Below are positions 24,729 through 49,710 of a DNA stretch of 64,000 nucleotides, one piece after another. The DNA lies in contig NZ_PRLD01000004.1 of the NCBI RefSeq assembly GCF_003287405.1, positions 160,593 to 224,592 of the forward strand. The letters are read 5' to 3'. A program made the position numbers and the translations under genes. The number at the start of each line of letters is the position of its first letter. Positions within the stretch are counted from its first letter, which is position 1. This stretch comes from Faecalibacterium prausnitzii. GTDB lineage: Bacteria; Bacillota; Clostridia; Oscillospirales; Ruminococcaceae. The notes below the pieces were generated by a model. It was given only the letters and a program-made list of their open reading frames with translations, was not told the origin of the DNA and ran no database searches.

Positions 24729-24736
24729 AAAGGAAT

Positions 24737-30920: not shown

Positions 30921-31741
30921 AGGCTGTCCTCCTCCGGCGTCAGAATATCACGGAGTGCTTCTCCAAATAAATTGAAGCCTGCTGCCGTTACGAAGATGCA
31001 CAAGCCTGGATAGATTAGCAATTCCGGATGAGAGTAAAGCGCTGTCCTGGCATCATTTAACATGGCACCCCATTCCGGTGTGCCGGAGGGAAGGCCAAGT
31101 CCGAGGAAAGCAAAGCTGGAAACCATAATGATGGAAGAAGCGACACCAGTGGAAACATACACAAGAAACTGTGGCAGAATGTTAGGAATCAGATGTCTGA
31201 AGACCAGCTTTCCTGTATTGCACCCAGAAATCCGGGCTGCCAAGATATAATCTTTACCCATTTCTTGAACGGAATAAGATCTGACAACACGAACAAACCA
31301 AGCCCAGGTCGCTATCACAACAGAAACGGCAATGTTTTGGAGTCCGTTCCCCAGAACGCCTATAACAGCAATAGCAATGATAAGAGAAGGAAAAGCAATA
31401 AACACATCACAGAGTATAGTAATGAAATGGTCTGCTTTTTTTCCAGCACAGGCGCTAAAAGTACCGACAATCAGACCAATCACAGACAAAATCAGCAGCA
31501 CAGGTAAACTGATTCCGATGGAATATCTGGCTCCATACAGCAGCCTTGATAAGGTACACCTGCCCAATTGATCTGTTCCAAGAGGGTATTCTGCGTCAGG
31601 CTGAGCATACTTTTGCGATAAATTCACCAATTCAGGGTCGTGAGGCGAAAAAGCAGGTGCTGCAATCGCAATCACAATCACAATAGCAATCAGGCACAGA
31701 CCGATAATTGCCTGCGGCCTTTTGAGTAGCTTATGTATCAT
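30917..31741 (-). CDS. ABC transporter permease, NikC/DppC type
   Basis: A 274-residue inner-membrane protein: N-terminal helix (AIIGLCLIAIVIVIAIAAPA), the DppC-type FSPHDPELVNLSQKYAQPDA segment and GTDQLGRCTLSRLLYGARYS, then the EAA loop (AARISGCNTGKLVFRHLIPN) that contacts the ATPases, and further helices. Partner of the NikB-type permease, whose 3' end overlaps its start by 11 bases. Confidence 0.92.
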   Translation of the reverse strand: MIHKLLKRPQAIIGLCLIAIVIVIAIAAPAFSPHDPELVNLSQKYAQPDAEYPLGTDQLGRCTLSRLLYGARYSIGISLPVLLILSVIGLIVGTFSACAGKKADHFITILCDVFIAFPSLIIAIAVIGVLGNGLQNIAVSVVIATWAWFVRVVRSYSVQEMGKDYILAARISGCNTGKLVFRHLIPNILPQFLVYVSTGVASSIIMVSSFAFLGLGLPSGTPEWGAMLNDARTALYSHPELLIYPGLCIFVTAAGFNLFGEALRDILTPEEDSL

Positions 31742-32681
31742 TTTCTTCCCTCACCATCCATGGACAAAGCAGACGGTTGATTATGTCTGCCATGAAATTT
31801 GCGACGACAAAAATTGCTGCAATGACGACTATACAGGTAGAAACTGCAATCGTATCTGCTGCAATCACACTGTCCACCAGATAAGTTCCGATTCCCTTGA
31901 TTGAAAAAATACTTTCGATTACCGCCCCTCCGGCAATTAGAAAGCCGAATTGCTGAAAGAAAATTGTAACAACAGGCGGTAAGGCATTTCGCAGAATGTG
32001 GCATACCAGGATTCTGTTGGCAGATAGTCCACGGGCTTTTGCAAACCGAACATAATCAGAAGATAATTCAGCCAGAAGAGAGGAACGCATAATTCGGATG
32101 AGTGAACACGAACTGGGGACCGCCAGGGCAAATGAAGGTAGTAAAAAGCCCCTCCAACCTGGACTTGGTAAGACACTGAACCATTTCAGATGAATCGCAA
32201 AGAACAGTAGAAGAAGGAATCCCAGCCAGAAAGTTGGCATACAAATACCGCAGATAGTAATGCCTCTGGTAACCTGATCGAAAAGGCGGTTCCGCTTTCT
32301 GGCACAGAGCAAACTAATCGGAACGGTGAGTACGATAATCCATAGAATGGCCATCCCTACAAGAGATGTGGTCGTAGCCAGATACTTGTGCAGATCCTTT
32401 ACAATCGGTTGATGAGTGGTCAAAGAAGTCCCAAGTTCTCCTGTAAACATTCCGGAAAGCCACTGAATATATCGCACAGGGAGAGGTTGATCCAATCCCA
32501 TTTCCACCCGAATCATCTCAATCTGTTCCGGCGTAGGATTGGATACGCCTCGGTGTGCAATAATTTCTGCAGGATCTTTTCCGGACCAAGCAATCAACAA
32601 AAAACTTAGAATGCTGACGCCTACCAGCACAATGAGGAAGTTAATGATCCTTTTTCCAATATATTTCTTCAAATAATGCAC
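31731..32681 (-). CDS. ABC transporter permease, NikB/DppB type
   Basis: A 316-residue inner-membrane protein: IGKRIINFLIVLVGVSILSF LLI at the start, DPAEIIAHRGVSNPTPEQIE (periplasmic loop typical of DppB/NikB), six helices, and the EAA loop FAKARGLSANRILVCHILRN. RBS GAGGTG. It is the first gene of the importer part and lies 88 bases downstream of the half-transporter gene, in the same direction. Confidence 0.92.
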   Translation of the reverse strand: MHYLKKYIGKRIINFLIVLVGVSILSFLLIAWSGKDPAEIIAHRGVSNPTPEQIEMIRVEMGLDQPLPVRYIQWLSGMFTGELGTSLTTHQPIVKDLHKYLATTTSLVGMAILWIIVLTVPISLLCARKRNRLFDQVTRGITICGICMPTFWLGFLLLLFFAIHLKWFSVLPSPGWRGFLLPSFALAVPSSCSLIRIMRSSLLAELSSDYVRFAKARGLSANRILVCHILRNALPPVVTIFFQQFGFLIAGGAVIESIFSIKGIGTYLVDSVIAADTIAVSTCIVVIAAIFVVANFMADIINRLLCPWMVREENDT

Positions 32682-32769
32682 CTCCTCACATCAGAAATCA
32701 GTTAGACATAGTTAATCAAATGCCTTTATGTTACCCTACAGTGCGGTCTGCATCTGAAGGGTAACCTGC

Positions 32770-34494
32770 TTAGTAGTTAAATTTCTCTGCCAGATTGGAC
32801 TTTTCAATCATCTTTCTATATGTGGGCGACTGTTTCAGCAGATGAGCATGTTTTCCGCAGGCTTCTACCGTACCTGCTTTCATAACGACGATCTTATCTG
32901 CATTTTCAATAGACTTCAGTCTGTGTGAAATAACAATCACGGTCTTGCCTTGAATCAAATGATTTAATCCAGTCTGTATCTGGACTTCTGTTTCCACATC
33001 TAACGATGCAGCAATCTCATCCAGAATGATAATTGGAGCATCCTTCAGGATTGCTCTGGCAATGGACAGCCGCTGACGTTCTCCGCCGGAGAGTTTGGCT
33101 CCATTTTCCCCGATTATTGTCTGGTAGGTGTCTGGCAGACGGCTGACAAACTCATTGCAACCAGCCAGTTTTGCAGCTCGTATTACTTCTTCGTCAGAAG
33201 CATCCAGCCGCCCAAGGCGAATATTTTCCATAATAGAAGTATTAAATAGAATGACTTCCTGAAAAACAATGGAAACATACTTGAACAAGCTATCAGTGTG
33301 AATTTCTCGTATGTCGGTTCCTCCGATCTGAACGGTACCGGAATCTGCATCATATAGTCTGCTGATGAGCTTAAGCATTGTTGTTTTTCCGCAGCCGCTG
33401 GGACCGACCAATGCGGTTACCTGTCCTTGCTCCGCCGTAAAGGATGCATGGCGAATCACCTGGGTGTCTTTCTGGTAGGAAAAACAAACATCCTTTATTT
33501 CTACATTGAAATCTGAAAGGACTGCCTTTTCTCCACCCTGAAGTTCATGATTCTTGATTTCACCAATCCGGGCAATTCTTGCGTCCAAATAAAAGATTTC
33601 CGTCAGATAGAGCAAAACACCACCCATGGCCCCGCTGAGTTTCGCCGCCATAATAATATAGCCCAGAAGAATCAGGATACTTACCTGACCGGAGGCGAGC
33701 ATTGAAAGGCCAACAGTCGCCGTGATTCCAATAGGAAGAATAGATAAAGTCTGGCCGATTGTAACAGGAATTGTCTGGGTGATCTGAGCTTTCCATTGAA
33801 GATTTTCTGACTCATCCAACTGCTGGTCCATTTGAGCTTCTACTTTTTCTTTCAACCCATAGCTTTTAATTTCCTGATTCAGTTCGATTGCATTCTGAAA
33901 GCTTTCGGAAATATCTCTCAACTTATCATAATGTTTATTTACATCTCTGACCTGCAGTTTCTTTGTCAAGAAAAGAACCGAAGCAGAAGTAAGAACGGGA
34001 AGCAATACACAGAGACCTAATTTCCAATTCATGATCAGAAGGGCTACGCTGATAACCAAAAAGTAAATTGCAAACCCTATGGAATTAGCCACTGCGTTCG
34101 CAAAAGCATGCTCAATCGAAGCCACATCTGCCATGATTGTTTGAGCAAGGTCAGACAAATTGTGCTTTGAAAAATAGGATAGGGGCAGTTTGGAAAGCTG
34201 TTCCGCCAGATCAATTCTTAAATTTGCAGATTCCTGGTAGGTTTCATCATAGGTCGTTTTATAGTTATAGTTAATAACTAAGTACATCACCAGGGTCGCT
34301 GCCAGCATAAACAGGAGATATACCACCGGTTTCCCGGCATTTCCATTCAACAGCCTGTCTGCAAACAGAAAAACACAGATCATCGGCGGTACAAAAGAAA
34401 CATAATAGAGAAAGAATGACCAGATTGATTTTTCAAGGCCCTTCACACCCGAATCACTCAGCTGGAAGGCTCTTTTTAGATATGTCTTTATCAT
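32770..34494 (-). CDS. Exporter-fold ABC half-transporter B (YbtQ/IrtB-like)
   Basis: A 574-residue fusion of a six-helix membrane domain (about 1-310) and an ATPase (about 340-570) with Walker A VGPSGCGKTT, signature KLSGGERQRLSIARAIL, Walker B IIILDEIAASLD and ISHRLKSI. Start ATG 34494 is preceded by GGAGG and overlaps the stop of the preceding gene (ATGA). Paired half-transporters of this type next to an AraC regulator resemble YbtP/YbtQ, which import metal-siderophore complexes despite an exporter fold (established for Yersinia). Export of a metallophore or drug is the alternative. Confidence 0.85.
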   Translation of the reverse strand: MIKTYLKRAFQLSDSGVKGLEKSIWSFFLYYVSFVPPMICVFLFADRLLNGNAGKPVVYLLFMLAATLVMYLVINYNYKTTYDETYQESANLRIDLAEQLSKLPLSYFSKHNLSDLAQTIMADVASIEHAFANAVANSIGFAIYFLVISVALLIMNWKLGLCVLLPVLTSASVLFLTKKLQVRDVNKHYDKLRDISESFQNAIELNQEIKSYGLKEKVEAQMDQQLDESENLQWKAQITQTIPVTIGQTLSILPIGITATVGLSMLASGQVSILILLGYIIMAAKLSGAMGGVLLYLTEIFYLDARIARIGEIKNHELQGGEKAVLSDFNVEIKDVCFSYQKDTQVIRHASFTAEQGQVTALVGPSGCGKTTMLKLISRLYDADSGTVQIGGTDIREIHTDSLFKYVSIVFQEVILFNTSIMENIRLGRLDASDEEVIRAAKLAGCNEFVSRLPDTYQTIIGENGAKLSGGERQRLSIARAILKDAPIIILDEIAASLDVETEVQIQTGLNHLIQGKTVIVISHRLKSIENADKIVVMKAGTVEACGKHAHLLKQSPTYRKMIEKSNLAEKFNY

Positions 34495-36242
34495 GCCAAC
34501 CTCCACTGATTTGCCTTGCAGTATACATCCTGAAAATCCTTATAACGTCCATTGCAGGCCATCAGTTCATTGTGGGTTCCCTGTTCCACAACTTTTCCAT
34601 TCTGGACAAACAGGATCTGGTCTACATTCTGAATAGAGGACAGCCTGTGTGCAATCATGATAACTGTTTTGCCCCTCATCAGTTTTTGGAAAGCCTGCTG
34701 CAACTCGTATTCATTTTCCGGATCTGCAGCTGCAGAAGCCTCATCCATAATGACGATATTCGCATTCTTTAGAATAGCCCTTGCAATGGCGATCCTTTGC
34801 ACCTCACCACCGGAAAGGTATACGCCCTTTGCCCCTATGACGGTCATCTCCCGCTGGGGGAATTTGTCAAGGATGGATGTGCAGTTCGCTGCGTCAAGTG
34901 CATCCATAATCTGCTGCCGTGTTGCCTGAGGATTTCCGATTCGGACATTTTCGTAAATTGAGGTCTTTAGTAATTGACTGCGCTGGAAAACAAATGCGAT
35001 GTTCTGAATGAGAGCTTTTTCAGAATAACTCTGAATGTTCTTTCCACCAATCAGAATTTCGCCGCCATCGACAGGATAAAAACCTGAAATCAGCTTTGCA
35101 ATGGTAGATTTTCCTCCCCCGGAAGACCCGATGAGCGCATAAGTTTTATTCTGATGAAGTGTCAGGCTGAAATCCTTCAGCACGAAGTTGTCATCATACT
35201 TAAAGTCAACATGACGAAATTCAACATTGAAATCTTGGAAGGTCTCTTCGTTTCCATGTGGAAGCTTTGCCTGATCCATAGAAGTAGTCAGCTCATCAAG
35301 CTGATTCAGCGTATTTTGTGCGCCAAAGTTATCCTGCCCCGTAAACATGATCGATGTGAAAGAAGTAAATACAGCTCCGGAGAACACAGCAAAGAAAACA
35401 ATCTTTGCCAGGATTAGCATAGCAGGTTCTCCATAGCTGATGAATACAACTGCGGCTGGTACAGCAAAAGCATAAAACACGTTGAACAGAACCTGGAATC
35501 CAACGTAGGGATTCTTACAGCTGAGGCTATACTGATAGACGTACTGTTTGTACTCTTTGATCGAGTTAATCAGAGTTTTGTAATACTGTACAGTTACACC
35601 GAAGATTTTTATGATCTGCATTCCTCTGACATATTCTACTGTTGCCGCACTCATCTTTTGAAGCGCCGCTGAATAGCCAGACAGAAATTCAGTACCACCG
35701 GACATTTTACGATACTGAAGAACACCAATCACAGTTGTAAGAATCAGGAGAATACCAAGGCGATAGTCTATTGCAAACATCAGCACAAACATTAACACCG
35801 GCGTCATAACAGCAGTGACGTTGTCCGGAATCAAATGGGCCACTGTTTTGTGTGTTTCTGCTGCGTTATCATCAATAATTTTTCGAATTTCTCCAGAGCT
35901 GTTATGGTCAAAAAAGGAAGAAGAGGCATCCAATAATTTATGAAGCCCATTTTTCCTTAAGTTTGTTTCAAGCCGGAAGCCTAAGTAGTGGGAACACGTT
36001 GCCGATGCAATGTTGAGAATGCCTCGTAAAATCATAAGTATGACTACAATAATTGCGTCATACATAGCCTTCTCATATACGGGAATAACCAGAATAGACA
36101 CAATGAACCGCCACAGAAACCAATATGCTCCCATATATGAGCAGACGGCAGCGGCAGATAGTGCCATGGAGAAATATGCCAAAATTCTTTTATCTGGGAC
36201 ATAATGAAATAGTTTTTTATATAAACTGCGCATTGACTTCAA
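34491..36242 (-). CDS. Exporter-fold ABC half-transporter A (YbtP/IrtA-like)
   Basis: A 583-residue protein: membrane domain about 1-320, ATPase about 345-575 with Walker A IGSSGGGKSTI, Q-loop FVFQRSQLL, signature YLSGGEVQRIAIARAIL, Walker B IVIMDEASAAAD and H-loop IAHRLSSI. First gene of the leftward operon; heterodimer partner of the next gene. The position opposite an AraC gene, with AraC-type direct repeats between them, suggests substrate-responsive activation. Confidence 0.85.
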   Translation of the reverse strand: MKSMRSLYKKLFHYVPDKRILAYFSMALSAAAVCSYMGAYWFLWRFIVSILVIPVYEKAMYDAIIVVILMILRGILNIASATCSHYLGFRLETNLRKNGLHKLLDASSSFFDHNSSGEIRKIIDDNAAETHKTVAHLIPDNVTAVMTPVLMFVLMFAIDYRLGILLILTTVIGVLQYRKMSGGTEFLSGYSAALQKMSAATVEYVRGMQIIKIFGVTVQYYKTLINSIKEYKQYVYQYSLSCKNPYVGFQVLFNVFYAFAVPAAVVFISYGEPAMLILAKIVFFAVFSGAVFTSFTSIMFTGQDNFGAQNTLNQLDELTTSMDQAKLPHGNEETFQDFNVEFRHVDFKYDDNFVLKDFSLTLHQNKTYALIGSSGGGKSTIAKLISGFYPVDGGEILIGGKNIQSYSEKALIQNIAFVFQRSQLLKTSIYENVRIGNPQATRQQIMDALDAANCTSILDKFPQREMTVIGAKGVYLSGGEVQRIAIARAILKNANIVIMDEASAAADPENEYELQQAFQKLMRGKTVIMIAHRLSSIQNVDQILFVQNGKVVEQGTHNELMACNGRYKDFQDVYCKANQWRLA

Positions 36243-36271
36243 ATATACACCTCTTTTTGCTTAAAAACGGT

Positions 36272-36374
36272 TTGACATACATCAGCTCTTTCATTATAAT
36301 TAGATGTAGCTAACTGTAAAGGACAAAACAGATATAAAGTCTAAACAAGGTATTAATAAATCTAAACGAGGTAT
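36272..36374. promoter_or_regulatory. Overlapping divergent promoters with AraC-type direct repeats
   Basis: Rightward: TTGACA (36272-36277), 17 bases, TATAAT (36295-36300). Leftward: TTTACA (complement of 36315-36320), 16 bases, TATAAT (complement of 36293-36298). The two -10 boxes overlap. Two direct repeats TCTAAAC(A/G)AGGTAT at 36340-36353 and 36361-36374 are 21 bases apart (two helical turns), upstream of the leftward -35, as expected for an AraC activator that also represses its own gene. Confidence 0.75.
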
Positions 36375-36389
36375 CCTTGGGAGGAGCCA

Positions 36390-37313
36390 ATGATAGAAGT
36401 TGAACGAGATGATTTCTTTGTTGAATCGATAAAGAATCCAATAGAGTACGGAACATATTATAAGATCAACCCAAAATATGGAACCGGATTTCAATGGACG
36501 AGTGAGGTTCACCACGATTTCATCATTACAGTGACAGATATAAGATTTAACCAGGAAACTATGGTCGGAGAACATATTGGGTCTGGTTATGTACTTGCTC
36601 TCTATATTAGTGGCGCAGGAGATGAATTCTATCCGTATCAAAATATTTCTCCGAATACATTGCGCTGCTATGAACCATCTGAAAAGTATAAAGCTATTTA
36701 TCATCCTCAGATTCCATTAAGATGTATTACCGTGCAGTTTGACCAGGAATTTATTGATCAGTATCTCCAGGAAATTTCCGGTGATCTTGAAGTAAACTTT
36801 TCTGATTTTTTCAAAGAAAAAGGGAAATTCTATTTACCAAATGTTAATCATGCTATGCAAAGCCTATATGAGTATCTGCTTTCCATGAAAGCGTCCAGAA
36901 TTACAGTAGAAGTAAAAATATATGAAATCATCTCTTATCTTGCTTCATATTTGAAAGAAAACAGACTAAATGAAGAGAATGGCCAACCCATTAACAAAAC
37001 AGATTTGCAGGCATTAGATGAACTAACGCATTATATGGACGAACATTACAGTTTTAATATTACGTTGCAGACGCTTTCCACCATTGCATGTATGAGTGAA
37101 AGCAAAATGAAAAAGCTATTTAAGTCAGTTTATAATATGTCCATTACTGAATACATTCAGAGGAAAAGGATCTCTGTAGCCGAGCATATGCTTATTCAGA
37201 CCGACCTCACCATTGCGGAAATTTCAAGAATTGTTGGATACTCCAACCCCAGTAGATTGATTGAAATATTCAAAAGGTATTATGGATTTACTCCCTCAAA
37301 ATACAGAAAATAA
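36390..37313 (+). CDS. AraC-family regulator of the metal-transport operon
   Basis: A 307-residue protein. The C-terminal 100 residues hold two HTH motifs (ITLQTLSTIACMSESKMKKL and LTIAEISRIVGYSNPSRLIE) and the AraC signature FKRYYGFTPSKYRK. The N-terminal about 200 residues do not look like a standard AraC cupin but resemble the sensor part of YbtA/PchR-type siderophore regulators in length. RBS GGGAGGAG. Divergent from the transporter operon; likely responds to the transported metal chelate. Confidence 0.88.
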   Translation: MIEVERDDFFVESIKNPIEYGTYYKINPKYGTGFQWTSEVHHDFIITVTDIRFNQETMVGEHIGSGYVLALYISGAGDEFYPYQNISPNTLRCYEPSEKYKAIYHPQIPLRCITVQFDQEFIDQYLQEISGDLEVNFSDFFKEKGKFYLPNVNHAMQSLYEYLLSMKASRITVEVKIYEIISYLASYLKENRLNEENGQPINKTDLQALDELTHYMDEHYSFNITLQTLSTIACMSESKMKKLFKSVYNMSITEYIQRKRISVAEHMLIQTDLTIAEISRIVGYSNPSRLIEIFKRYYGFTPSKYRK

Positions 37314-37373
37314 AAGTGTTATACTAATTTGGATAAACCTAACCCCCTAAAAATCAACCAAATCAATCGTTAT

Positions 37374-37412
37374 GGGGCTGTTGCACAAGGAAGAAAGCCA
37401 GTGCAGCAGCCC
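37374..37412 (+). repeat. 39-base repeat, copy B
   Basis: Identical to 25761-25799, same orientation, followed by CCTTTTTAT. It forms the terminator hairpin after the AraC gene. No IS interior follows it, so it is a solo end or a recombination footprint. Confidence 0.8.
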
Positions 37413-37502
37413 CTTTTTATCAATGTAACCTCGTCACAGAAAAAGACTTTGCCCTGCGGTATGATAAAGCCACAATCAATAAACAAGAAAGAGGTGGCGA
37501 AC

Positions 37503-37630: not shown

Positions 37631-37663
37631 AATCTTGACAAAAATTATCAAGATTGATATGAT
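37631..37663 (+). promoter_or_regulatory. Promoter with Rrf2-type operator
   Basis: -35 TTGACA (37635-37640), 17-base spacer, -10 TATGAT (37658-37663). A perfect dyad AATCTTGA-N9-TCAAGATT (37631-37655) covers the -35 and most of the spacer, ideal for autorepression by the Rrf2 protein whose gene starts at 37699. Confidence 0.8.
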
Positions 37664-37698: not shown

Positions 37699-38130
37699 AT
37701 GATCATCACCAAAGAGACGGACTACGCGCTGCGCATTTTGCGGGTGCTGCTGGACGGGGAGAAGCATTCGGTGGCCGAGATGTCGGAAACGGAATTGATC
37801 CCCAATCAGTTTGCCTACCAGATTCTGCGCAAGCTCTCCGCCGGCAATTTGGTGCGGGTGAGCCGCGGCGCTCTCGGCGGCTGCGAGCTGTCCTGCGATC
37901 TGGACGCGACCTCCCTCTACGATCTCATGGGGGTCGTGGGGGAGCGGGGCATCCTGTGCGCCTGCATGGAGCCGGGATATGAATGCCGCTGGCAGGACAA
38001 GCATGGGCGGTGCGCCATCCACTGTCAGCTGGCGGCCTTGCAGAAAAAGCAGGACGAGGCGTTCCGTGCCGTGAGCCTGCGCAGGCTGCTGACCGGCGGA
38101 TCCGATCCCCAAGATACAAGCAAGCTGTAA
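37699..38130 (+). CDS. Rrf2-family (IscR/NsrR-like) Fe-S regulator
   Basis: A 143-residue protein: MIITKETDYALRILRVLLDG, winged-helix with SVAEMSETELIPNQFAYQIL RKLSAGNLV, RVSRGALGGCEL (Rrf2 wing) and a cysteine set CACMEPGYEC then CAIHC suited to hold an Fe-S cluster. ATG 37699 is preceded by GGATGTGGAG. It leads the operon of the dehydrogenase fusion (22 bases downstream), so it probably senses O2, NO or Fe-S status and represses this redox block. Confidence 0.92.
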   Translation: MIITKETDYALRILRVLLDGEKHSVAEMSETELIPNQFAYQILRKLSAGNLVRVSRGALGGCELSCDLDATSLYDLMGVVGERGILCACMEPGYECRWQDKHGRCAIHCQLAALQKKQDEAFRAVSLRRLLTGGSDPQDTSKL

Positions 38131-38152: not shown

Positions 38153-40066
38153 ATGCTGTTTCAAACCACGTCGGCGCACGAAGAGCTGCGCGCGAAGATC
38201 CGGAGTTTTGCGGAGGAGGAGATCAAGCCCCTCGCATTTTTAATGGATCAGAACAATGAGTTTCCCGAGGAGGCTGTCAAGAAGCTGGGTAAGCTGGGCT
38301 GGATGGGCATTCCCTACCCCAAGGAGTACGGCGGTGCCGGTCTTGATGCTCTGAGCTACGCCATCGCGGTGGAGGAGCTGGCCCGTGTGGACGGCGGCAC
38401 GGGCGTAATCCTCTCCGCCCACGTCTCCCTCGGCTCATGGCCCATTTTCGCCTATGGCACCGAGGAGCAGAAGAAGAAATATCTGGTTCCGCTGGCCAAG
38501 GGCGAGAAGATCGGCGCCTTCGGCCTTACGGAGACCAACGCCGGATCCGACGCCGGCGGCACGGAGACCACGGCGCTGGATAAGGGGGACTACTACCTCC
38601 TCAACGGCGGCAAGATCTTCATTACCAACGCCCCTAAGGCGGACACCTATGTGATTTTCGCCGTCACCACGCCGGACATCGGCACTCGGGGCATCTCCGC
38701 TTTCATCGTGGAGAAGGGCTGGAAGGGCTTTGAGTTCGGCGACCACTATGACAAGATGGGTATTCGCTCCTCCTCCACGGCGGAGCTGATCTTCAACGAC
38801 GTGAAGGTTCCCAAGGAAAACCTATTGGGCAAGGAGGGCGAGGGCTTCAAGATTGCCATGTCCACGCTGGACGGCGGACGCATCGGCATCGCCGCGCAGG
38901 CGCTGGGCATCGCCCAGGGCGCGTTTGAGCACGCGTTGAGCTATTCCAAGGAGCGCGTCCAGTTCGGCAAGCCCATCGCGGCCCAGCAGAGCATCGCCTT
39001 CAAGCTGGCGGATATGGCAACCAAGCTGCGCTGCGCCCGGTTCCTCATCTACTCCGCGGCGGAGCTGAAGGAGCAGCACGCGCCTTACGGCATGGAGTCC
39101 GCCATGGCGAAGATGTACGCCTCGGACATCGCGCTGGAGGTCACCAACGATGCCTTGCAGATCCACGGCGGCAGCGGCTACCTCAAGGGCATGGAGGTGG
39201 AACGGGCCTACCGCGACGCCAAGATCACCACCCTCTACGAGGGCACTAATGAGATCCAGCGGGTGGTCATCGCCTCTCATCTGTTGGGCAGGCTGGGCAA
39301 GAGCTCCGGCGGCGAGAGCCGTTCGGCGGCCAAGAAACCCGCGCCCATCACCGGCATTCGCAAAAAGACCATCTTCCGGGAGGGGGATGCTGCCCAGCAG
39401 GTGGCCGACCTTGTGGCGGCGCTGAAGAAGGATGGTCACGACTTCTCCGTCGGCATTCCTATGGATACGCCCATCCCGCAGGCGGAGCGGGTGGTCTCCG
39501 CGGGCAAGGGCATCGGGGAGAAAAAGAACATGAAACTGGTAGAGTCGCTGGCCAAGGCCGCCGGCGCGGCCATCGGTTCTTCCCGCCCTGTGGCGGAGAC
39601 TCTCAAATATCTGCCGCTGAACCGCTATGTGGGTATGTCTGGTCAGAAGTTCACCGGCAATCTGTACATCGCCTGCGGCATCTCCGGCGCATCTCAGCAC
39701 CTTAAGGGCATCAAGGACGCCTCCACCATCGTGGCCATCAATAAGAACGGTAACGCGCCTATCTTCAAGAACTGCGACTACGGCATCGTAGGCGATGTGG
39801 AGGAGATCCTGCCCCTGCTCACTGCCGCGCTGGATAGCGGCGAAAAGCTGCCCGCGCCGCCCATGGTAAAGATGAAGCGACCCACGCCGCCGAAGCCCGC
39901 CCCCATCGGCGACCGCTACGTCTGCAGCGGCTGCGGCTACGAGTACGTGCCGGAGTTGGGCGACGAGGACGGCGAGATCGCGCCCGGTACGCTCTTTGAG
40001 CAGCTTCCCGCCGAGTGGGTATGTCCCGAGTGCGCGGAGGCGAAGGATCAATTTGTAAAGGCTTGA
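38153..40066 (+). CDS. Acyl-CoA dehydrogenase / ETF-alpha / rubredoxin fusion
   Basis: A 637-residue three-part protein. Residues 1-380 are an acyl-CoA dehydrogenase (FGLTETNAGSDAGGTETTAL, FAFVIGLDGGRIGIA-type core, catalytic Glu363 in YEGTNEIQR). Residues about 400-565 are the FAD domain of ETF-alpha (GASRP-like IGSSRPVAETL, VGMSGQKFTGNLYIACGISG ASQHL, IVAINKNGNAPIF, CDYGIVGDVEEILP). Residues about 583-637 are a rubredoxin (YVCSGCGYEY ... WVCPECA). Electrons from an acyl-CoA could pass FAD to ETF-FAD to the rubredoxin iron within one chain. There is no separate ETF-beta gene here. A flavodiiron protein gene follows 23 bases later, the natural acceptor. RBS AAAGGAGG. Confidence 0.92.
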   Translation: MLFQTTSAHEELRAKIRSFAEEEIKPLAFLMDQNNEFPEEAVKKLGKLGWMGIPYPKEYGGAGLDALSYAIAVEELARVDGGTGVILSAHVSLGSWPIFAYGTEEQKKKYLVPLAKGEKIGAFGLTETNAGSDAGGTETTALDKGDYYLLNGGKIFITNAPKADTYVIFAVTTPDIGTRGISAFIVEKGWKGFEFGDHYDKMGIRSSSTAELIFNDVKVPKENLLGKEGEGFKIAMSTLDGGRIGIAAQALGIAQGAFEHALSYSKERVQFGKPIAAQQSIAFKLADMATKLRCARFLIYSAAELKEQHAPYGMESAMAKMYASDIALEVTNDALQIHGGSGYLKGMEVERAYRDAKITTLYEGTNEIQRVVIASHLLGRLGKSSGGESRSAAKKPAPITGIRKKTIFREGDAAQQVADLVAALKKDGHDFSVGIPMDTPIPQAERVVSAGKGIGEKKNMKLVESLAKAAGAAIGSSRPVAETLKYLPLNRYVGMSGQKFTGNLYIACGISGASQHLKGIKDASTIVAINKNGNAPIFKNCDYGIVGDVEEILPLLTAALDSGEKLPAPPMVKMKRPTPPKPAPIGDRYVCSGCGYEYVPELGDEDGEIAPGTLFEQLPAEWVCPECAEAKDQFVKA

Positions 40067-40089
40067 GGCCGTGAAGGAGGCAAGATAAG

Positions 40090-41301
40090 ATGTATTGCGT
40101 GCGTAAAGTAACGAACGACCTCTACTGGGTGGGCGCCAACGACCATCGCCTGGCCCTGTTTGAAAACTGCTTTCCCATTCCCCGGGGCGTAAGCTACAAC
40201 GCCTACTGCCTGCTGGATGAAAAGACGGTGCTCTTTGACACGGTGGACTGGTCTGCCTGCCGCCAGCTTTTGGAAAATCTGGCGTATGTGCTGGATGGCC
40301 GCGAGCTGGACTACCTGCTGGTCAACCATCTGGAGCCGGATCACGCCGCCTGCATCGAGGAGATCCTGCTGCGCCATCCCAAGGTGAAACTGATCTCCAA
40401 CGAGAAGGCATTCATGCTCATGCGGCAGTTCGGCTTCCATGTGGACGGACATGAGTGCATCGAGGTGAAGGAGGGCGACACCTTCTCCTTCGGCAAGCAC
40501 ACCGTCACCTTTGTGGGCGCGCCTATGGTTCACTGGCCGGAGGCCATGGTGACCCTCGACGTCACCGACGGCGTCCTCTTTTCCGCCGACGCCTTCGGCA
40601 CCTTCGGCGCGCTGGACGGCAAGCTGTTCGCCGACGAGGTGGACTTCGAGCGGGACTGGCTGGACGACGCCCGCCGTTACCTCACCAACATCGTGGGCAA
40701 GTACGGCCCCCACATCCAGCTCCTGCTGAAAAAGGCCGGCGGCGTTTTGGATCAGATCAAGTACATCTGCCCGCTCCACGGCCCCGTGTGGCGCAAGGAT
40801 CTGGGCTGGTTCATCGAAAAGTACGACACATGGAGCCGCTATGCCCCTGAAACCCAGGGCGTGCTCATCGTCTACGCCTCTATGTATGGCAACACGGAGA
40901 ACGCGGCGCAGGCGCTGGCGACCTCGCTCTGCGATAAGGGCATGAGCAAGGTGGCGATGTACGATGTGTCCTCCACTCATGTCTCCCAGCTAATCTCCGA
41001 GGCGTTTAAGTACAGTCACATTGTCTTGGCCTCTGTGACCTACAACCTCGGCATCTACCCCGCCATGCATGACTTCCTCATGGATATGAAGGCACTGAAT
41101 CTGCAAAACCGCACCTTTGCCATCATTGAAAACGGCTCATGGGCGGTGAAGTCCGGTGACCTCATGCAGAAATTCGTCAACAATGAGCTTAAGAACATGA
41201 CGGTGCTCAACGAGCGGCTCAGTCTCGCCTCGTCCATGGGCACGGACAAGCGCACTGAGTTGGAAGCACTGGCGGACGCCATTCTGGAATCTATGAAGTA
41301 A
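40090..41301 (+). CDS. fprA: Flavodiiron protein 1 (FprA, A-type flavoprotein)
   Basis: A 403-residue O2/NO reductase. The metallo-beta-lactamase-like domain (1-250) carries the diiron ligands H80, E82, D84, H85 (HLEPDH), the later MVHWPE His, SADAFG Asp and CPLHGPVWR His. The flavodoxin domain (about 256-400) binds FMN through ASMYGNTENAA. These enzymes reduce O2 to water with electrons from rubredoxin. RBS GGAGG 9 bases before ATG; directly after the rubredoxin-containing fusion, ends at a strong terminator. Confidence 0.95.
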   Translation: MYCVRKVTNDLYWVGANDHRLALFENCFPIPRGVSYNAYCLLDEKTVLFDTVDWSACRQLLENLAYVLDGRELDYLLVNHLEPDHAACIEEILLRHPKVKLISNEKAFMLMRQFGFHVDGHECIEVKEGDTFSFGKHTVTFVGAPMVHWPEAMVTLDVTDGVLFSADAFGTFGALDGKLFADEVDFERDWLDDARRYLTNIVGKYGPHIQLLLKKAGGVLDQIKYICPLHGPVWRKDLGWFIEKYDTWSRYAPETQGVLIVYASMYGNTENAAQALATSLCDKGMSKVAMYDVSSTHVSQLISEAFKYSHIVLASVTYNLGIYPAMHDFLMDMKALNLQNRTFAIIENGSWAVKSGDLMQKFVNNELKNMTVLNERLSLASSMGTDKRTELEALADAILESMK

Positions 41302-41420: not shown

Positions 41421-41467
41421 TGCCCAAAAGGACATGAGAAGTGACCGGAGAAGATGAGAGGATCGAA

Positions 41468-43984
41468 ATGGAGATCAGAAAACGAAACGGGGAGTCTGTT
41501 CCCTTTCAACAGGAGAAAATTTTCAACGCCATGAAAAAGGCGTTTGACGGACAGGGCAAGGAGATCGGGAGCAGAGAGATGGATGAGATCCTCGCCACCG
41601 TTCTCAACAATCTCTCCGTCACAGTGCCGCTCACCGTAGAACGTGTGCAGGACGAGGTGGAGCGAACGCTCATGGAGCGCGGACACTATGAGGTGGCCAA
41701 GGCGTACATTCTCTACCGCGAAAAGCGGTCTGCGCTGCGCCGTGTCCGGCATACCATCGCGCGGACGGTAGGGGATGACTCGCTTGACGAGGTGCTGCGT
41801 CGCATCCAGATGGATTTTACCGAGGAAGTCTACTCCCTCGCGGCGCTTCAAATGAAGTTTGAGAGCTTCTGTCGCCTGGGCATGACGGAGGATGAGCGGG
41901 CTGAGGCACTGACCAAGGCAGCGGTAGAGCTGACTACGGCAGAGGCACCCAAGTGGGAGTTCATCGCGGCGCGGCTTCTGAACCACTCCTTTCGCTGTCG
42001 CAACGCACAGGAATGGGAGGGGCGCGGCGTCGGCGACCTCTATGGCAAGCTTCGCTATCTGACGGATAAGGGACTCTACGGTGACTATATCCTTGCCCAC
42101 TATACCCACGAGGAGATTGCCATGGCGGAGGACTTTCTCTGCCCGGAACGGGACGAGCTGTTCACCTACTCCGGCCTTGACCTGCTGCTCAAACGCTATG
42201 TGATCCAGTCACGCAGCCGCGTGCCGCTGGAAACACCGCAGGAGATGTTTTTGGGTATCGCGCTGCATCTTGCTATGAACGAAGGCTCTGACCGCATGGG
42301 GTGGGTAAAACGCTTTTACGATATGCTCAGCCGTATGGAGGTCACGATGGCGACACCTACCATGTCCAACGCACGAAAGCCCTACCATCAGCTTTCAAGC
42401 TGCTTTGTGGACACTGTGCCGGACAGTCTGGACGGCATCTACCGCTCGCTGGACAACTTCGCAAAGGTCTCTAAATTCGGCGGTGGAATGGGGATGTACT
42501 TCGGTAAGGTGCGCGCTGCAGGCAGCACCATCCGCGGCTTTCAAGGGGCGGCGGGCGGTGTTATCCGCTGGATTCGGCTGGTCAATGACACCGCCGTGGC
42601 TGTGGATCAGTTGGGGATGCGGCAGGGCGCTGTGGCGGTTTACTTAGACGCATGGCACCGGGATCTGCCGGAATTCCTTCAACTGCGCACCAACAACGGC
42701 GACGACCGCATGAAGGCACATGATGTGTTTCCCGCCGTGTGCTATCCGGATCTCTTCTGGCGACTGGCGGAGGAGAACATAGACGCGCCGTGGCATCTCA
42801 TGTGTCCGCATGAGATCCTCACGGTCAAGGGCTACGCACTGGAGGATTACTGGGGTACAGAATGGGAGAAGCGGTATCTGGACTGCGTCAATGACCCGCG
42901 CATCGAAAAGCGCAGCGTCACCGTCAAGGACATCGTGCGGCTGGTGCTTCGCTCGGCAGTGGAGACCGGCACGCCCTTCGCTTTCAATCGCGACAGTGTA
43001 AATCATATGAACCCAAACGGCCACACGGGAATGATCTATTGCTCCAATCTCTGTACGGAGATCGCGCAGAACATGGCGCCCATCGAGCACATCAGCACTG
43101 AGGTGCACACGGAGAACGGCGACACAATAGTGGTGACGGCCACACGCCCAGGTGAGTTTGTGGTCTGCAATCTGGCGAGTCTGTCTCTCGGTAATCTGCC
43201 GGTGGAGGACGAGGCCTATATGGAACGCACGGTGGAAACGGCCATCCGCGCACTGGATAATGTGATCGACCTCAACTTCTACCCGTTGGAATACGCGCGG
43301 CTTACCAATCAGAAGTACCGCAGCATCGGCTTGGGCGTCAGCGGCTACCACCACATGCTGGCAAAGCGCGGCATCCACTGGGAGAGCGATGAGCACCTTG
43401 CCTTCACCGACGCAGTGTTCGAGCTCATCAACTACGCCGCCGTCAAGGCGGACACAGCACTGGCACGGGAAAAGGGTCGTTACGCGCTCTTTGAGGGCAG
43501 CGACTGGCAGACGGGCGCGTATTTTGAAAAGCGGGGTTATACCTCCGAAAAGTGGCGGGCACTTGCGAAAACGGTGGCGGTGCAGGGAATGCGCAACGCC
43601 TATCTGCTGGCGGTCGCACCGACCTCCAGCACATCTATCCTCTCCGGCACGTCGGCGGGCATAGATCCAATTATGAAGAAATTCTTCTTAGAGGAAAAAA
43701 AGGGCAGCATGCTGCCCCGCGTTGCTCCGGAGCTTTCTATGGACACATGGTGGTACTATAAGGCAGCGCATCTAATCGACCAAAGCTGGTCGGTACGCGC
43801 CGCGGGCCTTCGCCAGAGACATATTGACCAGGCGCAGAGCATGAATCTCTATATCACCAACGACTATTCCATGCGTCAGGTGCTCAGACTGTATTTGGAG
43901 GCGTGGAGGGCCGGCGTCAAGACCATTTACTATGTCCGCAGCAAGGCCCTTGAGGTCGAGACCTGCGAAAGCTGCTCGTCATAA
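41468..43984 (+). CDS. nrdA: Class Ia ribonucleotide reductase, alpha subunit
   Basis: An 838-residue enzyme. An N-terminal ATP-cone (about 1-90: EIRKRNGESVPFQQEKIFNA) gives allosteric activity control. The catalytic core has the first cysteine in LSSCFVDTV, the active-site N-x-C-x-E in YCSNLCTEIAQNM and PTSSTSILSGTSAGIDP, and a C-terminal redox pair in ETCESCSS, reduced by thioredoxin. It makes deoxyribonucleotides from ribonucleoside diphosphates. I prefer ATG 41468 (GAGAGG 7 bases upstream, start MEIRKRNG as in the family); a GTG at 41441 would add 9 residues. Followed 10 bases on by the beta subunit. Confidence 0.95.
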   Translation: MEIRKRNGESVPFQQEKIFNAMKKAFDGQGKEIGSREMDEILATVLNNLSVTVPLTVERVQDEVERTLMERGHYEVAKAYILYREKRSALRRVRHTIARTVGDDSLDEVLRRIQMDFTEEVYSLAALQMKFESFCRLGMTEDERAEALTKAAVELTTAEAPKWEFIAARLLNHSFRCRNAQEWEGRGVGDLYGKLRYLTDKGLYGDYILAHYTHEEIAMAEDFLCPERDELFTYSGLDLLLKRYVIQSRSRVPLETPQEMFLGIALHLAMNEGSDRMGWVKRFYDMLSRMEVTMATPTMSNARKPYHQLSSCFVDTVPDSLDGIYRSLDNFAKVSKFGGGMGMYFGKVRAAGSTIRGFQGAAGGVIRWIRLVNDTAVAVDQLGMRQGAVAVYLDAWHRDLPEFLQLRTNNGDDRMKAHDVFPAVCYPDLFWRLAEENIDAPWHLMCPHEILTVKGYALEDYWGTEWEKRYLDCVNDPRIEKRSVTVKDIVRLVLRSAVETGTPFAFNRDSVNHMNPNGHTGMIYCSNLCTEIAQNMAPIEHISTEVHTENGDTIVVTATRPGEFVVCNLASLSLGNLPVEDEAYMERTVETAIRALDNVIDLNFYPLEYARLTNQKYRSIGLGVSGYHHMLAKRGIHWESDEHLAFTDAVFELINYAAVKADTALAREKGRYALFEGSDWQTGAYFEKRGYTSEKWRALAKTVAVQGMRNAYLLAVAPTSSTSILSGTSAGIDPIMKKFFLEEKKGSMLPRVAPELSMDTWWYYKAAHLIDQSWSVRAAGLRQRHIDQAQSMNLYITNDYSMRQVLRLYLEAWRAGVKTIYYVRSKALEVETCESCSS

Positions 43985-43994
43985 GGAGGATAGC

Positions 43995-45038
43995 ATGACG
44001 GAACTGAAGAAAAAGCCCCTCTTTAACCCGGAGGGCGACCCTGATGTGCGCCTGCGGCGCATGATCGGCGGCAATACCACTAACCTCAACGACTTCAACA
44101 ATATGAAGTACGCTTGGGTCAGCGACTGGTACCGGCAGGCCATGAACAACTTTTGGATTCCTGAGGAGATCAATCTCTCGCAGGATGTGAAGGACTATCC
44201 CCGCCTGCTGTCAGCCGAGCGCAACGCCTACGATAAAATTCTGAGTTTTCTTGTCTTTTTGGATTCCATTCAGACAGCGAACCTGCCTAATATCGGCGCC
44301 TACATTACCGCCAACGAGGTCAATCTCTGCCTGTCCATTCAGGCGTTTCAGGAGTGTGTCCACTCACAGAGCTACAGCTATATGCTCGACACCATCTGTT
44401 CCCCCGTGGAGCGCAATGACATCCTCTACCAATGGAAAACGGACGAGCATCTGCTGCGCCGCAACACCTTCATTGGGGACTGCTACAACGCGTTTCAGGA
44501 GCGGAAGGACGCTCCCACGCTGCTGCGCGTGATGATGGCAAACTATATTTTGGAGGGCATCTATTTTTACAGCGGCTTTATGTTCTTCTACAATCTCTCC
44601 CGAAACGGGAAGATGCCCGGCTCGGCGCAGGAGATTCGCTACATAAACCGCGATGAGAACACGCACTTGTGGCTGTTCCGCAATATCATCACGGAGCTGC
44701 AAAAGGAGCAGCCGGAGTTGTTCACCGCCGAGAGCGTACAAGCGCTGCGCGAGATGATGCGTGAGGGCGTGGAGCAGGAGATCGCATGGGGGCATTATGT
44801 AATCGGCGACGACATCCCAGGGCTGAACCGGCAGATGATCAGCGATTACATCCGCTATCTCGGCAACCTCCGCTGGACGAGCCTTGGCTATCCCGCATTG
44901 TATCCAGGCTTTGAGAGCGAACCGGAGAGCATGGAATGGGTCAGCCAGTACGCCGACGCCAACATGGTCAAGACCGATTTCTTTGAGGCACGCAGTACCG
45001 CCTACGCCAAGAGCACCGCACTGATAGACGATTTATAA
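43995..45038 (+). CDS. nrdB: Class Ia ribonucleotide reductase, beta subunit
   Basis: A 347-residue radical-generating subunit. The diiron ligands are visible: the Asp in FLVFLDSIQTAN, Glu and His in QECVHSQSYSY, Glu in LEGIYFYSGF, Glu and His in RDENTHLW. The radical tyrosine is present four residues after the His (HSQSY). Oxygen is needed to form this radical (established for class Ia), notable in an anaerobe. ATG 43995 has AAGGAGG 5 bases upstream. Confidence 0.95.
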   Translation: MTELKKKPLFNPEGDPDVRLRRMIGGNTTNLNDFNNMKYAWVSDWYRQAMNNFWIPEEINLSQDVKDYPRLLSAERNAYDKILSFLVFLDSIQTANLPNIGAYITANEVNLCLSIQAFQECVHSQSYSYMLDTICSPVERNDILYQWKTDEHLLRRNTFIGDCYNAFQERKDAPTLLRVMMANYILEGIYFYSGFMFFYNLSRNGKMPGSAQEIRYINRDENTHLWLFRNIITELQKEQPELFTAESVQALREMMREGVEQEIAWGHYVIGDDIPGLNRQMISDYIRYLGNLRWTSLGYPALYPGFESEPESMEWVSQYADANMVKTDFFEARSTAYAKSTALIDDL

Positions 45039-45072: not shown

Positions 45073-45936
45073 ATGAATTACAGCGCTATGATTCAAAATC
45101 GCAGATCCGTTCGCGCATTCCGCGAAAAGGAAGTTCCGAGCGAGGCTATCGGCCAGCTCCGATCCTACTATGAAAAGACCTGCCCCCGTCTTGTCCCGGA
45201 GATTGCAACGGAGTTGATCGTCTTGGACAAGGATGCACAGCCGGCGCTGGAGAGCTCAGCGGGCTATAATCAATTTCTCATCGGAGCACCGCACTACCTG
45301 CTCCTTATGTCTGCCCCGCATTCCTATGCGGCCATCAACGCCGGCTACATGATGGAAGATCTCGTCCTCAAGTTGACTGAGTTGGACATTGACACCTGCT
45401 GGATGACCTTCACCGACAGCGACAAAATCAAAATGGCACTGTCTCTCGCCACCCCGTTAGAGGTGGCGGCAATCGTTGCCTTTGGCTACGGGGAAAAGAC
45501 CGCAAAAAAGCTGCGGCTGAATATCCTAAGTATGTCTCAGATCGATGTGCGGGCCGAGCAGCAGTACTACGCGCCCAAAAAGGGCGTGCACGATTTGGTT
45601 CACATGGGGAGCTGGAGCAACAAGTCTGGGCTTGACGAGATGATGGACTTCTACGACGATATGCTCTGGCAGTCCATCTACGCCGCTTCGCTCTCCCCCA
45701 GCTATCTCAACCGTCAGCCCTATGGCTTCCTTGTGCAGGACCACAGCATCTATTTGGTGCAGCAGGAGGATGCCTACACCGATAATTTGGATGCCGCATT
45801 GGATCTCGGTATTGTCATGCTCCACTTCTCCGCCGTCGCCTCCCAGTGGGCGGGGCAGGTACGCTGGGAACTTTCACCTGCTGCGCCCGACGGCCTGCCG
45901 GAAGGACTTCGCTCCGCTGCGGTGTACCACATGTAA
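45073..45936 (+). CDS. Nitroreductase-family flavoprotein (TM1586-like)
   Basis: A 287-residue protein: MNYSAMIQNRRSVRAFREKE VPSEAI (FMN-binding start of nitroreductases), then GAPHYLLLMS, INAGYMMEDLVLKLTELDID TCWM and VAAIVAFGYGEKTAKKLR. The second half repeats the fold (WQSIYAASLSPSYLNRQPYG), the arrangement of the TM1586-type putative nitroreductases in which one chain forms the two-lobed unit. Probably reduces quinones, nitro compounds or flavins with NAD(P)H. RBS TAGGAG; 34 bases after nrdB, so likely same operon. Confidence 0.85.
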   Translation: MNYSAMIQNRRSVRAFREKEVPSEAIGQLRSYYEKTCPRLVPEIATELIVLDKDAQPALESSAGYNQFLIGAPHYLLLMSAPHSYAAINAGYMMEDLVLKLTELDIDTCWMTFTDSDKIKMALSLATPLEVAAIVAFGYGEKTAKKLRLNILSMSQIDVRAEQQYYAPKKGVHDLVHMGSWSNKSGLDEMMDFYDDMLWQSIYAASLSPSYLNRQPYGFLVQDHSIYLVQQEDAYTDNLDAALDLGIVMLHFSAVASQWAGQVRWELSPAAPDGLPEGLRSAAVYHM

Positions 45937-46159: not shown

Positions 46160-46483
46160 ATGGCAGCTATGAATATGAATCAGGAGCAGTTTAAGCAGTT
46201 GATCCGGGAGGAAAAGCCTGTTTTGGTGGATTTCTGGGCGCCCTGGTGCAGCTATTGCCGGAGGATCGGCCCTGCGTATGAGAAGATTGGAGAGGAATAC
46301 GCGGACAGCCTTGCCGTCGGCAAAATCAACATTGACGAGGAGCCGCGGCTGGCGAGGGCCGAGGGGATCGAGGACATCCCAACTCTGGTGCTGTACCGGA
46401 ACGGAAAGGCCGTGGATTCCATCATCGCGCCCGGCTCAAAGGCAGAAATCGACCGTTTCATTCAGGAAGCCTTGGCGAAATAA
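46160..46483 (+). CDS. trxA: Thioredoxin with atypical CSYC active site
   Basis: A 107-residue protein of standard thioredoxin length: VLVDFWAPWCSYCRRIGPAY, GKINIDEEPRLARAEGIEDI PTLVLYRNGKAV (cis-proline). The active site is C30-S-Y-C33 instead of the usual C-G-P-C, which should change redox potential or partner choice. Encoded 15 bases upstream of thioredoxin reductase; the two together can reduce the ribonucleotide reductase upstream. Confidence 0.95.
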   Translation: MAAMNMNQEQFKQLIREEKPVLVDFWAPWCSYCRRIGPAYEKIGEEYADSLAVGKINIDEEPRLARAEGIEDIPTLVLYRNGKAVDSIIAPGSKAEIDRFIQEALAK

Positions 46484-46497: not shown

Positions 46498-47427
46498 ATG
46501 AACAACAATCATGTTTATGATATGCTCGTGGTGGGCGGCGGACCGGGCGGCTACACCGCCGCCCTGTACGCGGCACGGGCGGGGCTGGACACCATCGTGC
46601 TGGAAAAACTGTCCGCCGGTGGGCAGATGGCCCTGACCGAGCAGATCGACAACTATCCCGGCTTTGAGGACGGGATCGACGGCTTCTCTCTGGCGGAGAA
46701 GATGCAAAAGCAGGCGGAGCGCTTCGGGGCACGCAGCGAATACGTAGAAGTCCTCCGCATGGATCTGACGGCGGTTCCCAAGCTCGTGGAGACCAGCGAG
46801 GGGATTTTCCTGGGGAAAACCGTGGTGCTGGCCACCGGTGCGAACCCCAGAAAGCTGGGCGTGGCCAGAGAGTCGGAACTGGTGGGCCGAGGCGTGGCCT
46901 ACTGCGCCGCCTGCGACGGGATGTTTTACAAGGGCAAAACGGTGGTCGTGGTGGGCGGCGGCAATTCCGCCGCGGCAGATGCCCTCCTTCTCAGCCGCGT
47001 GGCGAAAAAAGTGATCCTCGTCCACCGCAGAGACACCCTGCGGGCCACCAAAATCTATCACGAGCCGCTGACACAGGCCGAAAACGTGGAATTCCGTTGG
47101 AACAGCGTCGTTTCCGCACTGCTTTCCGGGGACAGGCTGACCGGCGTCCGCCTGCGGGACACCGTCACCGGTGAGGAAAGCGTGGTGGACTGCGACGGCG
47201 TATTTGTCAGCGTGGGCCGACAGCCCGCCACGGCGCTGGCGGTGGGTCAACTGGAGCTGGACGGCGGCGGCTATATCGTGGCCGGAGAGACCACGGAAAC
47301 CAGTATTCCCGGCGTTTACGCCGTGGGCGACGTGCGGACGAAGCCCCTCCGTCAGGTGGTCACCGCCGTGGCGGACGGCGCGGTGGCAGTTCACATGGCG
47401 GAGAAGTATATCGCGGAAAACCGATAA
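46498..47427 (+). CDS. trxB: Thioredoxin reductase
   Basis: A 309-residue flavoenzyme: FAD site VVGGGPGGYTAALYAARAGL, redox-active disulfide CAAC in VAYCAACDGMF, NADPH site VVVVGGGNSAAADALLLSRV with VHRRDTL, and the C-terminal FAD motif GVYAVGDVRTKPLRQVVTAV. It passes NADPH electrons to thioredoxin. RBS GGAGG. Ends the operon; a terminator with a T7 run lies downstream. Confidence 0.96.
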   Translation: MNNNHVYDMLVVGGGPGGYTAALYAARAGLDTIVLEKLSAGGQMALTEQIDNYPGFEDGIDGFSLAEKMQKQAERFGARSEYVEVLRMDLTAVPKLVETSEGIFLGKTVVLATGANPRKLGVARESELVGRGVAYCAACDGMFYKGKTVVVVGGGNSAAADALLLSRVAKKVILVHRRDTLRATKIYHEPLTQAENVEFRWNSVVSALLSGDRLTGVRLRDTVTGEESVVDCDGVFVSVGRQPATALAVGQLELDGGGYIVAGETTETSIPGVYAVGDVRTKPLRQVVTAVADGAVAVHMAEKYIAENR

Positions 47428-49691: not shown

Positions 49692-49710
49692 TAAGGAGTT
49701 GTTTTGTATT

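Follow-up and report, generated by a model that had tools for sequence, protein, structure and literature searches.

A BOOR-type dehydrogenase-rubredoxin fusion and its flavodiiron partner within a likely mobile oxygen-defence block of Faecalibacterium prausnitzii

The reduction of oxygen at the expense of an acyl-CoA has been described for FN1424/FN1423 of Fusobacterium nucleatum, the butyryl-CoA oxygen oxidoreductase (BOOR) characterised in 2024 by Bystrom and Wolthers (reviewed in PMC12288474; see also PMC12630350). The published enzyme is an alpha4beta4 complex that couples the conversion of butyryl-CoA to crotonyl-CoA with that of O2 to H2O and has no nitric oxide (NO) reductase activity, and its fusion protein, which the discoverers named butyryl-CoA reductase, contains only the C-terminal part of EtfA (PMC12288474). 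According to the same review, most of the flavodiiron proteins (FDPs) that have been studied use NAD(P)H as the primary donor, and some are NO reductases (PMC12288474). A 2026 preprint describes BOOR beside the Rrf2 gene C0FN14 in gut Clostridia, F. prausnitzii included, with ribonucleotide reductase (RNR), thioredoxin and rubrerythrin enriched around these Rrf2-BOOR loci, especially in F. prausnitzii, and gives Asp8 and three Cys as the ligand set of this Rrf2, resembling the NO sensor NsrR (PMC13404960). Here we compare with these systems a gene pair in a 64,000-nucleotide stretch of F. prausnitzii DNA (contig NZ_PRLD01000004.1, positions 160,593 to 224,592; hereafter the window, whose own numbering is used), which encodes a fusion of an acyl-CoA dehydrogenase, an EtfA FAD domain and a rubredoxin (BCR), followed by an FDP. 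With a probability of roughly 0.88, we read the pair as a BOOR-type, butyryl-CoA-driven O2 reductase that is controlled by Rrf2 and lies in an oxygen-defence block likely to have moved between gut genera.

The fusion protein and its flavodiiron partner

According to the list of open reading frames (ORFs) and Pfam, the BCR gene (38153..40066, forward strand) encodes a protein of 637 aa in which Acyl-CoA_dh_N/M/1 take up residues 6-377, the FAD-binding domain of ETF_alpha residues 441-521 and Rubredoxin residues 588-634, all above the curated cut-offs. Glu363 lies in the context TLYEGTN and the rubredoxin Cys are residues 591, 594, 624 and 627; these five residues are identical in all 72 full-length sequences compared (71 relatives and the window), and the same holds for Ser476-Ser477-Arg478, Val493-Gly-Met-Ser496 and His516. 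An initial annotation of this DNA had described a three-domain fusion of 637 residues with Glu363, and the Pfam matches and the residue check bear this out. The relatives, here and below, are the best 80 of at least 559 loci, those nearest by the C-terminal part of BCR, and the counts speak for close relatives; loci L009, L107, L108, L110-L120 and L142-L145 were outside the analysis.

The FDP gene (40090..41301, forward strand) starts 23 bases past the BCR stop, as the initial annotation had stated, and its 403-aa product has the ODP/beta-lactamase and flavodoxin domains (Pfam) together with the expected ligand residues. His80, Glu82, Asp84 and His85 are present in 73 of 73 sequences and His148, Asp167 and His230 in 72, the remaining one being gapped there; we take these seven residues to be the diiron ligands. 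An FDP lies at most 1.5 kb downstream of BCR in all 71 relatives whose sequence extends more than 1.3 kb past it, and because of this the pairing is not due to chance. The initial annotation had held that a fusion found mostly without a flavodiiron neighbour would speak against it, and the reverse was found. Over all loci, 76 of 80 have the FDP, and the other four end within 89 bases of the BCR stop or inside BCR.

BCR would oxidise butyryl-CoA to crotonyl-CoA, with the electrons passing through its FAD, the electron-transfer flavoprotein (ETF) FAD and rubredoxin to the FDP, which would reduce O2 to water. An electron path of this kind, from an acyl-CoA to O2, had been proposed for the window from the letters of the DNA; it is supported yet not new, since in essence it is the one reported for the F. 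nucleatum homologue (PMC12288474). The sequences show directly the domain content, the residues for catalysis and metal binding and the unfailing pairing in close relatives, and it is by analogy with the F. nucleatum homologue that we infer a probable substrate, complex formation and product. The absence of ETF-beta that had been pointed out also holds among the window proteins scanned with Pfam, and BCR itself gives no Pfam match to the N-terminal ETF domain (PF01012). This appears to be the normal state, as the published protein likewise has the C-terminal part of EtfA only (PMC12288474).

For the dehydrogenase domain, the PDB entry nearest by sequence is 5ol2_C, the Bcd of the C. difficile Etf/Bcd complex, and a fold search of the PDB with the BCR model also returned Bcd-type dehydrogenases on top, 5ol2_C first with 61% identity. 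The best NCBIfam model, the acryloyl-CoA reductase AcrC, reached 492 bits against a cut-off of 640, and the assignment of a substrate from this family model was dropped because the score is under the cut-off. In the AlphaFold model (mean pLDDT 76.3, pTM 0.57), segments 382-402 and 569-581, which flank the ETF domain, have pLDDT below 50, as do three short stretches within the dehydrogenase domain; the low values around the ETF domain would fit a tethered, movable domain. Residues 493-496, close to the FAD site, read VGMS in all 72 compared sequences. Canonical EtfA reads VGQT at this position, and the VGMS motif may tune the flavin potential and could be usable as a signature of the fusion.

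Identity between the dehydrogenase domain and the Bcd of the host is 54%, and this, together with the name butyryl-CoA reductase given by the discoverers (PMC12288474), would agree with a mainly fermentative role as a second crotonyl-CoA (enoyl-CoA) reductase in which O2 reduction is incidental. We consider this very improbable, as the genome has a complete Bcd-EtfB-EtfA set elsewhere, BCR has neither the N-terminal ETF domain nor an ETF-beta beside it, and its neighbours are the FDP, a rubrerythrin, a superoxide reductase and an Rrf2 regulator of the Fe-S type. The host genome (99.64% complete) encodes thiolase, crotonase, hydroxyacyl-CoA dehydrogenase, Bcd, EtfB and EtfA in one cluster and also has an RnfC gene, and because of these genes a source of butyryl-CoA and a sink for crotonyl-CoA should be expected. 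The O2-driven cycle proposed for F. nucleatum would then be available to this host.

A different objection is that the FDP receives its electrons from NAD(P)H by way of another reductase, with BCR as one of several donors or a minor one. NAD(P)H is, as noted above, the usual donor of studied FDPs, a thioredoxin reductase and other flavoproteins are encoded nearby, and the genome has two further FDP genes, three in all. Against this, the only PF00301 rubredoxin domain of the genome is the one in BCR, the FDP follows BCR in each of the 71 eligible loci, and the published pair forms a complex (PMC12288474), which makes this alternative unlikely. The rubredoxin-like domains within the rubrerythrin and the superoxide reductase belong to other Pfam families. 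BCR is also the sole PF00301 match in 4 of 14 further genomes with BOOR (F. longum, F. prausnitzii ATCC 27768, Pseudoflavonifractor Marseille-P3106 and E. plexicaudatum), and the other 10 have at least one more, weak in one case. A free rubredoxin gene lies 6-8 kb from BCR in Clostridium fessum and in both Oscillibacter genomes, and it has no match in the F. longum locus, the ATCC 27768 locus or the window. The third FDP gene of the host (G000:C18:292703-293866) is on a separate contig, and its product is 44% identical to the operon FDP.

The Rrf2 regulator and its predicted operator

Upstream of BCR lies a gene for an Rrf2-family regulator (37699..38130, forward strand; PF02082), whose ORF is listed from 37690 and whose start common to the relatives is 37699. 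Rrf2 was detected in 45 of the 80 loci, and Asp8, Cys89, Cys96 and Cys105, the ligand set of the C0FN14/NsrR type, are present in all 44 sequences compared, the window included. The predicted sigma-70-type promoter of the operon, TTGACA-17-TATGAT (37635..37663, forward strand), is overlapped at its -35 hexamer and the -35/-10 spacer by a perfect palindrome, AATCTTGA-N9-TCAAGATT (37631..37655, forward strand), which we predict to be the Rrf2 operator. Rrf2 with its NsrR-like ligand set would occupy this palindrome and leave once its cluster is damaged.

Four of the 45 Rrf2 loci (L031, L057, L076 and L087) were dropped for want of upstream sequence, leaving 41. Among the 42 upstream regions of these relatives and the window, the spacing of the promoter is 17 in 40 and 18 in 2, in a search anchored on TTGA and the best -10, so that TTGA itself was selected for. 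Between the hexamers lies a TC.A element whose T, C and A do not vary in any of the 42. A strict operator pattern fits 31 of the 41 loci with Rrf2 and 1 of 26 in which Rrf2 was not detected, searched over 171 bases before Rrf2 and 400 bases before BCR, respectively; the latter group had 28 members before L031 and L076, which have Rrf2 and short upstream sequence, were removed. The background was 81 of 8200 random pieces and 11 of 8200 shuffled pieces. The 23-base core of the palindrome has no other exact match in the window or the genome, and at up to 2 mismatches there are 15 sites in the genome, compared to 6 for the reversed control, the sole exact one being that before Rrf2. Within the window, 6 sites were found at up to 3 mismatches, which compares with a chance mean of 3.65 and was reached by 11 of 100 shuffles. 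A genome-wide regulon was dropped on account of this near-chance count and the single exact site, and only a local site is claimed.

The resemblance of the Rrf2 ligands to those of NsrR raises the possibility that the BCR-FDP pair removes NO and not O2, and the best NCBIfam models for the FDP, below their cut-off, are indeed NO-reductase flavorubredoxins. Class I RNRs are generally dependent on O2, and the presence of one among the neighbours argues against such a role. NO reductases do exist among FDPs, but the F. nucleatum complex has no such activity (PMC12288474), and we regard NO removal as distinctly unlikely and an O2 reductase as the better reading of the pair.

The oxygen-defence block and its spread

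The operon continues with genes for an NrdA-type RNR alpha subunit (41441..43984), an RNR beta subunit (43932..45038; the listed start overlaps NrdA and the true start is probably downstream) and a nitroreductase-family flavoprotein (45073..45936), followed by thioredoxin (46160..46483) and thioredoxin reductase (46498..47427), all on the forward strand; it is the beta subunit that makes the RNR one of class I. The core of the block (37547-46072) is found at 98.7% DNA identity in F. longum (8,528 columns), at 98.9% in ATCC 27768 (8,659 columns, from 37414) and at 97.0% in Oscillibacter MSJ-31 (8,526 columns), and in part in C. fessum (97.6%, 7,523 columns, with the nitroreductase missing) and Oscillibacter ER4 (97.1%, 6,238 columns). 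Shorter stretches are shared with loci L014-L016 at 94-96% identity.

The chromosomal Bcd-Etf region, used as a control, is 97% identical in ATCC 27768, 86% in F. longum, 72-73% in Oscillibacter and 68% in C. fessum; in the remainder of the 19-kb Bcd-Etf stretch the values are 92% in ATCC 27768 and 72-80% in F. longum. Recent horizontal transfer of the block is therefore likely, as F. longum, Oscillibacter and C. fessum share it at 97-99% and the control at far lower identity. The distribution of the operon is patchy: the 31 genomes of the genus comprise 8 with the full 8.5 kb at 99%, its own among them, 2 with divergent copies (75-77%) and 21 without a match at E up to 1e-100, 13 of these being at least 90% complete. 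BCR was found in 4 of 197 genomes of the family sample, and some part of the operon has a DNA match in 16 of 391 genomes of the class sample, the own genome included in both counts; the best foreign match in the class sample is 74%. The BCR tree joins the window to two Faecalibacterium sequences (starred 97) and this group to Oscillibacter, C. fessum and two others (starred 98), and a bin named Faecalibacterium (L042) is placed elsewhere.

Further parts of the block accompany the operon. To the left (23069..25746, forward strand) are genes for a DUF134 regulator, a Nitro_FeMo-Co protein, a CRP/FNR regulator, rubrerythrin (24808-25350) and desulfoferrodoxin/superoxide reductase (25372-25746); 23136-25747 is shared at about 90-98% DNA identity with C. 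fessum, F. longum and two Oscillibacter, and ATCC 27768 retains only 22783-23294 and 24730-25760. To the right is a second FDP gene (49699..50892, forward strand; 397 aa), whose product has the same ligand pattern and reaches the Pfam threshold with its ODP/lactamase part alone. This gene lies between the nitroreductase and the thioredoxin pair in F. longum, ATCC 27768 and Oscillibacter MSJ-31 and between NrdB and thioredoxin in C. fessum. The rubrerythrin-superoxide reductase part, the second FDP and the thioredoxin pair are shared at 88-99%, with differences in order and gaps, and at the threshold used neither the second FDP nor the thioredoxin pair was seen in the Oscillibacter ER4 stretch examined. 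It is tempting to propose that butyryl-CoA serves as the common reductant of the entire oxygen-defence network, with the BCR rubredoxin passing electrons to the second FDP, the superoxide reductase and the rubrerythrin as well as to its own FDP, and that the island moved among Faecalibacterium, Oscillibacter and C. fessum, making strict butyrate producers tolerant of O2 at a cost in butyrate, but we hold this extension to be possible rather than probable.

The block also holds a ferritin gene (57428..58012, forward strand), in a region common to the F. longum, ATCC 27768 and Oscillibacter MSJ-31 copies, as well as riboflavin genes, and has two CRP/FNR regulators in all. The riboflavin biosynthesis genes RibH, RibBA, RibE and RibD (52297-55766, reverse strand) lie beside the second FDP and could supply flavin to the flavin-rich block; 51418-56081 is 98.8% identical to loci that in F. 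longum and ATCC 27768 are on contigs apart from the block. That their position next to the block is an assembly error was considered and rejected, as the single-contig genome G620 is collinear with 37547-58116 save for small breaks and repeats the order thioredoxin reductase, CRP, DUF2249, second FDP, riboflavin genes and ferritin. Two DUF2249 genes (48587-49691) lie between the CRP/FNR regulator and the second FDP. An extra stretch of the F. longum block (L011:4753-8036, L010:4753-8036), missing from the window, encodes a thioredoxin, a RelA/SpoT-domain protein and a CoA-disulfide-reductase-like protein that includes a rhodanese domain; ORFs of matching size occur in C. fessum at 93.6% DNA identity.

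An insertion of 11.65 kb (25761..37413) separates the superoxide reductase from the Rrf2 operon and stops about 220 bases before the Rrf2 promoter. It contains a DDE transposase, an Opp-type ABC importer, two ABC-exporter-like ORFs (32770-34506 and 34491-36242, judged by eye from the translations) and an AraC regulator, carries copies of one repeat of about 39 bases at its two ends and is absent from ATCC 27768. A tyrosine-type integrase (12585..13976, reverse strand) and a MobA/VirD2-type relaxase (61434..62825, reverse strand) are encoded on either side of the block, as would be expected of a mobile element. The integrase region is 99% identical in F. longum and ATCC 27768, on contigs other than that of the block; it is directly beside the block in G620 (92%) and about 11 kb away in G621 (96%). 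The relaxase region follows right after ferritin at 93.5-94.6% in F. longum and ATCC 27768, and the F. longum contig has a serine recombinase and a MobA/MobL relaxase. The block has likely moved between gut genera, carried within Faecalibacterium by elements that encode an integrase and a relaxase. A lacto-N-biose phosphorylase gene (385-2544) lies in host DNA of the window to the left of the integrase region, and F. longum and ATCC 27768 match 1-2771 at 96-97% identity.

Several observations weigh against our reading of the locus. The sequence does not fix the chain length of the BCR substrate, and the AlphaFold model, with its pTM of 0.57, leaves the domain arrangement unfixed. Control by Rrf2 is not universal, with Rrf2 upstream in only 42 of 68 loci that have enough upstream sequence. 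Among 58 window proteins, small ORFs being left out, and ten F. longum proteins, no coupling protein or VirB4-type/conjugation ATPase was detected; the window's contig ends at the window end, and the ends of the element were not found. Ten ORFs flanking the C. fessum copy include no integrase or relaxase. ATCC 27768 gives no argument for transfer, as its identity in the control region comes close to that in the block, and the single-contig carriers G620 and G621 have a left flank in common at 97-98%. These last two points, and the fact that the carriers found are gut Clostridia, could also be taken to mean that the near-identity of the block stems from strong selection on a vertically inherited locus, or from contaminated assemblies. 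This we judge to be highly unlikely given the much lower control values outside ATCC 27768 and the many unmatched genomes of the genus. Moreover, the block is present in the single-contig genomes G597, G609, G620 and G621 and on a C. fessum contig of 884,797 bases, and in none of these four single-contig genomes does the left flank of the window (1-9049) have a match beside it. Horizontal transfer thus remains the preferred explanation for the block.

Comparison with described systems

Faecalibacterium, which makes much of the butyrate of the human gut as one of its major producers, is noted for being sensitive to oxygen. The 8 of 31 carriers and the 21 unmatched genomes of the genus offer a natural comparison for O2 tolerance, O2 uptake and butyrate yield under O2. 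Our results suggest that BOOR, so far known as an enzyme, can travel with a redox support kit, and they supply a specific predicted operator sequence for its Rrf2 regulator.

The window pair and BOOR of F. nucleatum have in common a Bcd domain, a C-terminal EtfA domain and a rubredoxin in one chain, with an adjoining FDP gene (PMC12288474). The kinship is judged by architecture: BCR architecture, adjoining FDP, catalytic Glu, rubredoxin Cys, FDP ligands and flavodoxin domain are all present, and the host is, on gene content alone, able to make butyryl-CoA. Fusobacterium is not among the few named entries of the 120 BCR matches listed, and no search was aimed at FN1424/FN1423. In contrast to the F. 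nucleatum system, the window pair is in an operon with Rrf2 and a class I RNR, inside a likely mobile O2-defence block. The Rrf2 (C0FN14)-BOOR loci of gut Clostridia are alike in having Rrf2 with Asp8 and three Cys, BCR and FDP, with RNR, thioredoxin and rubrerythrin nearby (PMC13404960). In the main text of that preprint, words that start with mobile, conjugative, operator or palindrom do not occur, and the single "horizontal" concerns Bacteroidia; the near-identity across genera and the predicted operator are what our analysis adds to it. Nothing on the block as a mobile element or on the operator was found in the open-licence literature, which is no proof of absence.

The bifurcating butyryl-CoA dehydrogenase-EtfAB complexes (C. 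difficile 5ol2, C. kluyveri) have a homologous dehydrogenase and the EtfA FAD domain, whereas BCR is without the N-terminal ETF domain and EtfB and has a rubredoxin and the VGMS motif; a bifurcating flavin site is therefore not expected in BCR. Hrb-FprA of Moorella and the multidomain FDP of C. difficile are alike in that a rubredoxin-domain donor feeds an FDP, but there the reductant is NADPH or NADH and not an acyl-CoA (PMC12288474). In conclusion, the BCR-FDP pair is a well-supported case of the already known BOOR system in a mobile-looking setting, and to what is described for that system it adds the near-identity across genera, the predicted operator and a BCR that carries the sole PF00301 rubredoxin of its genome.

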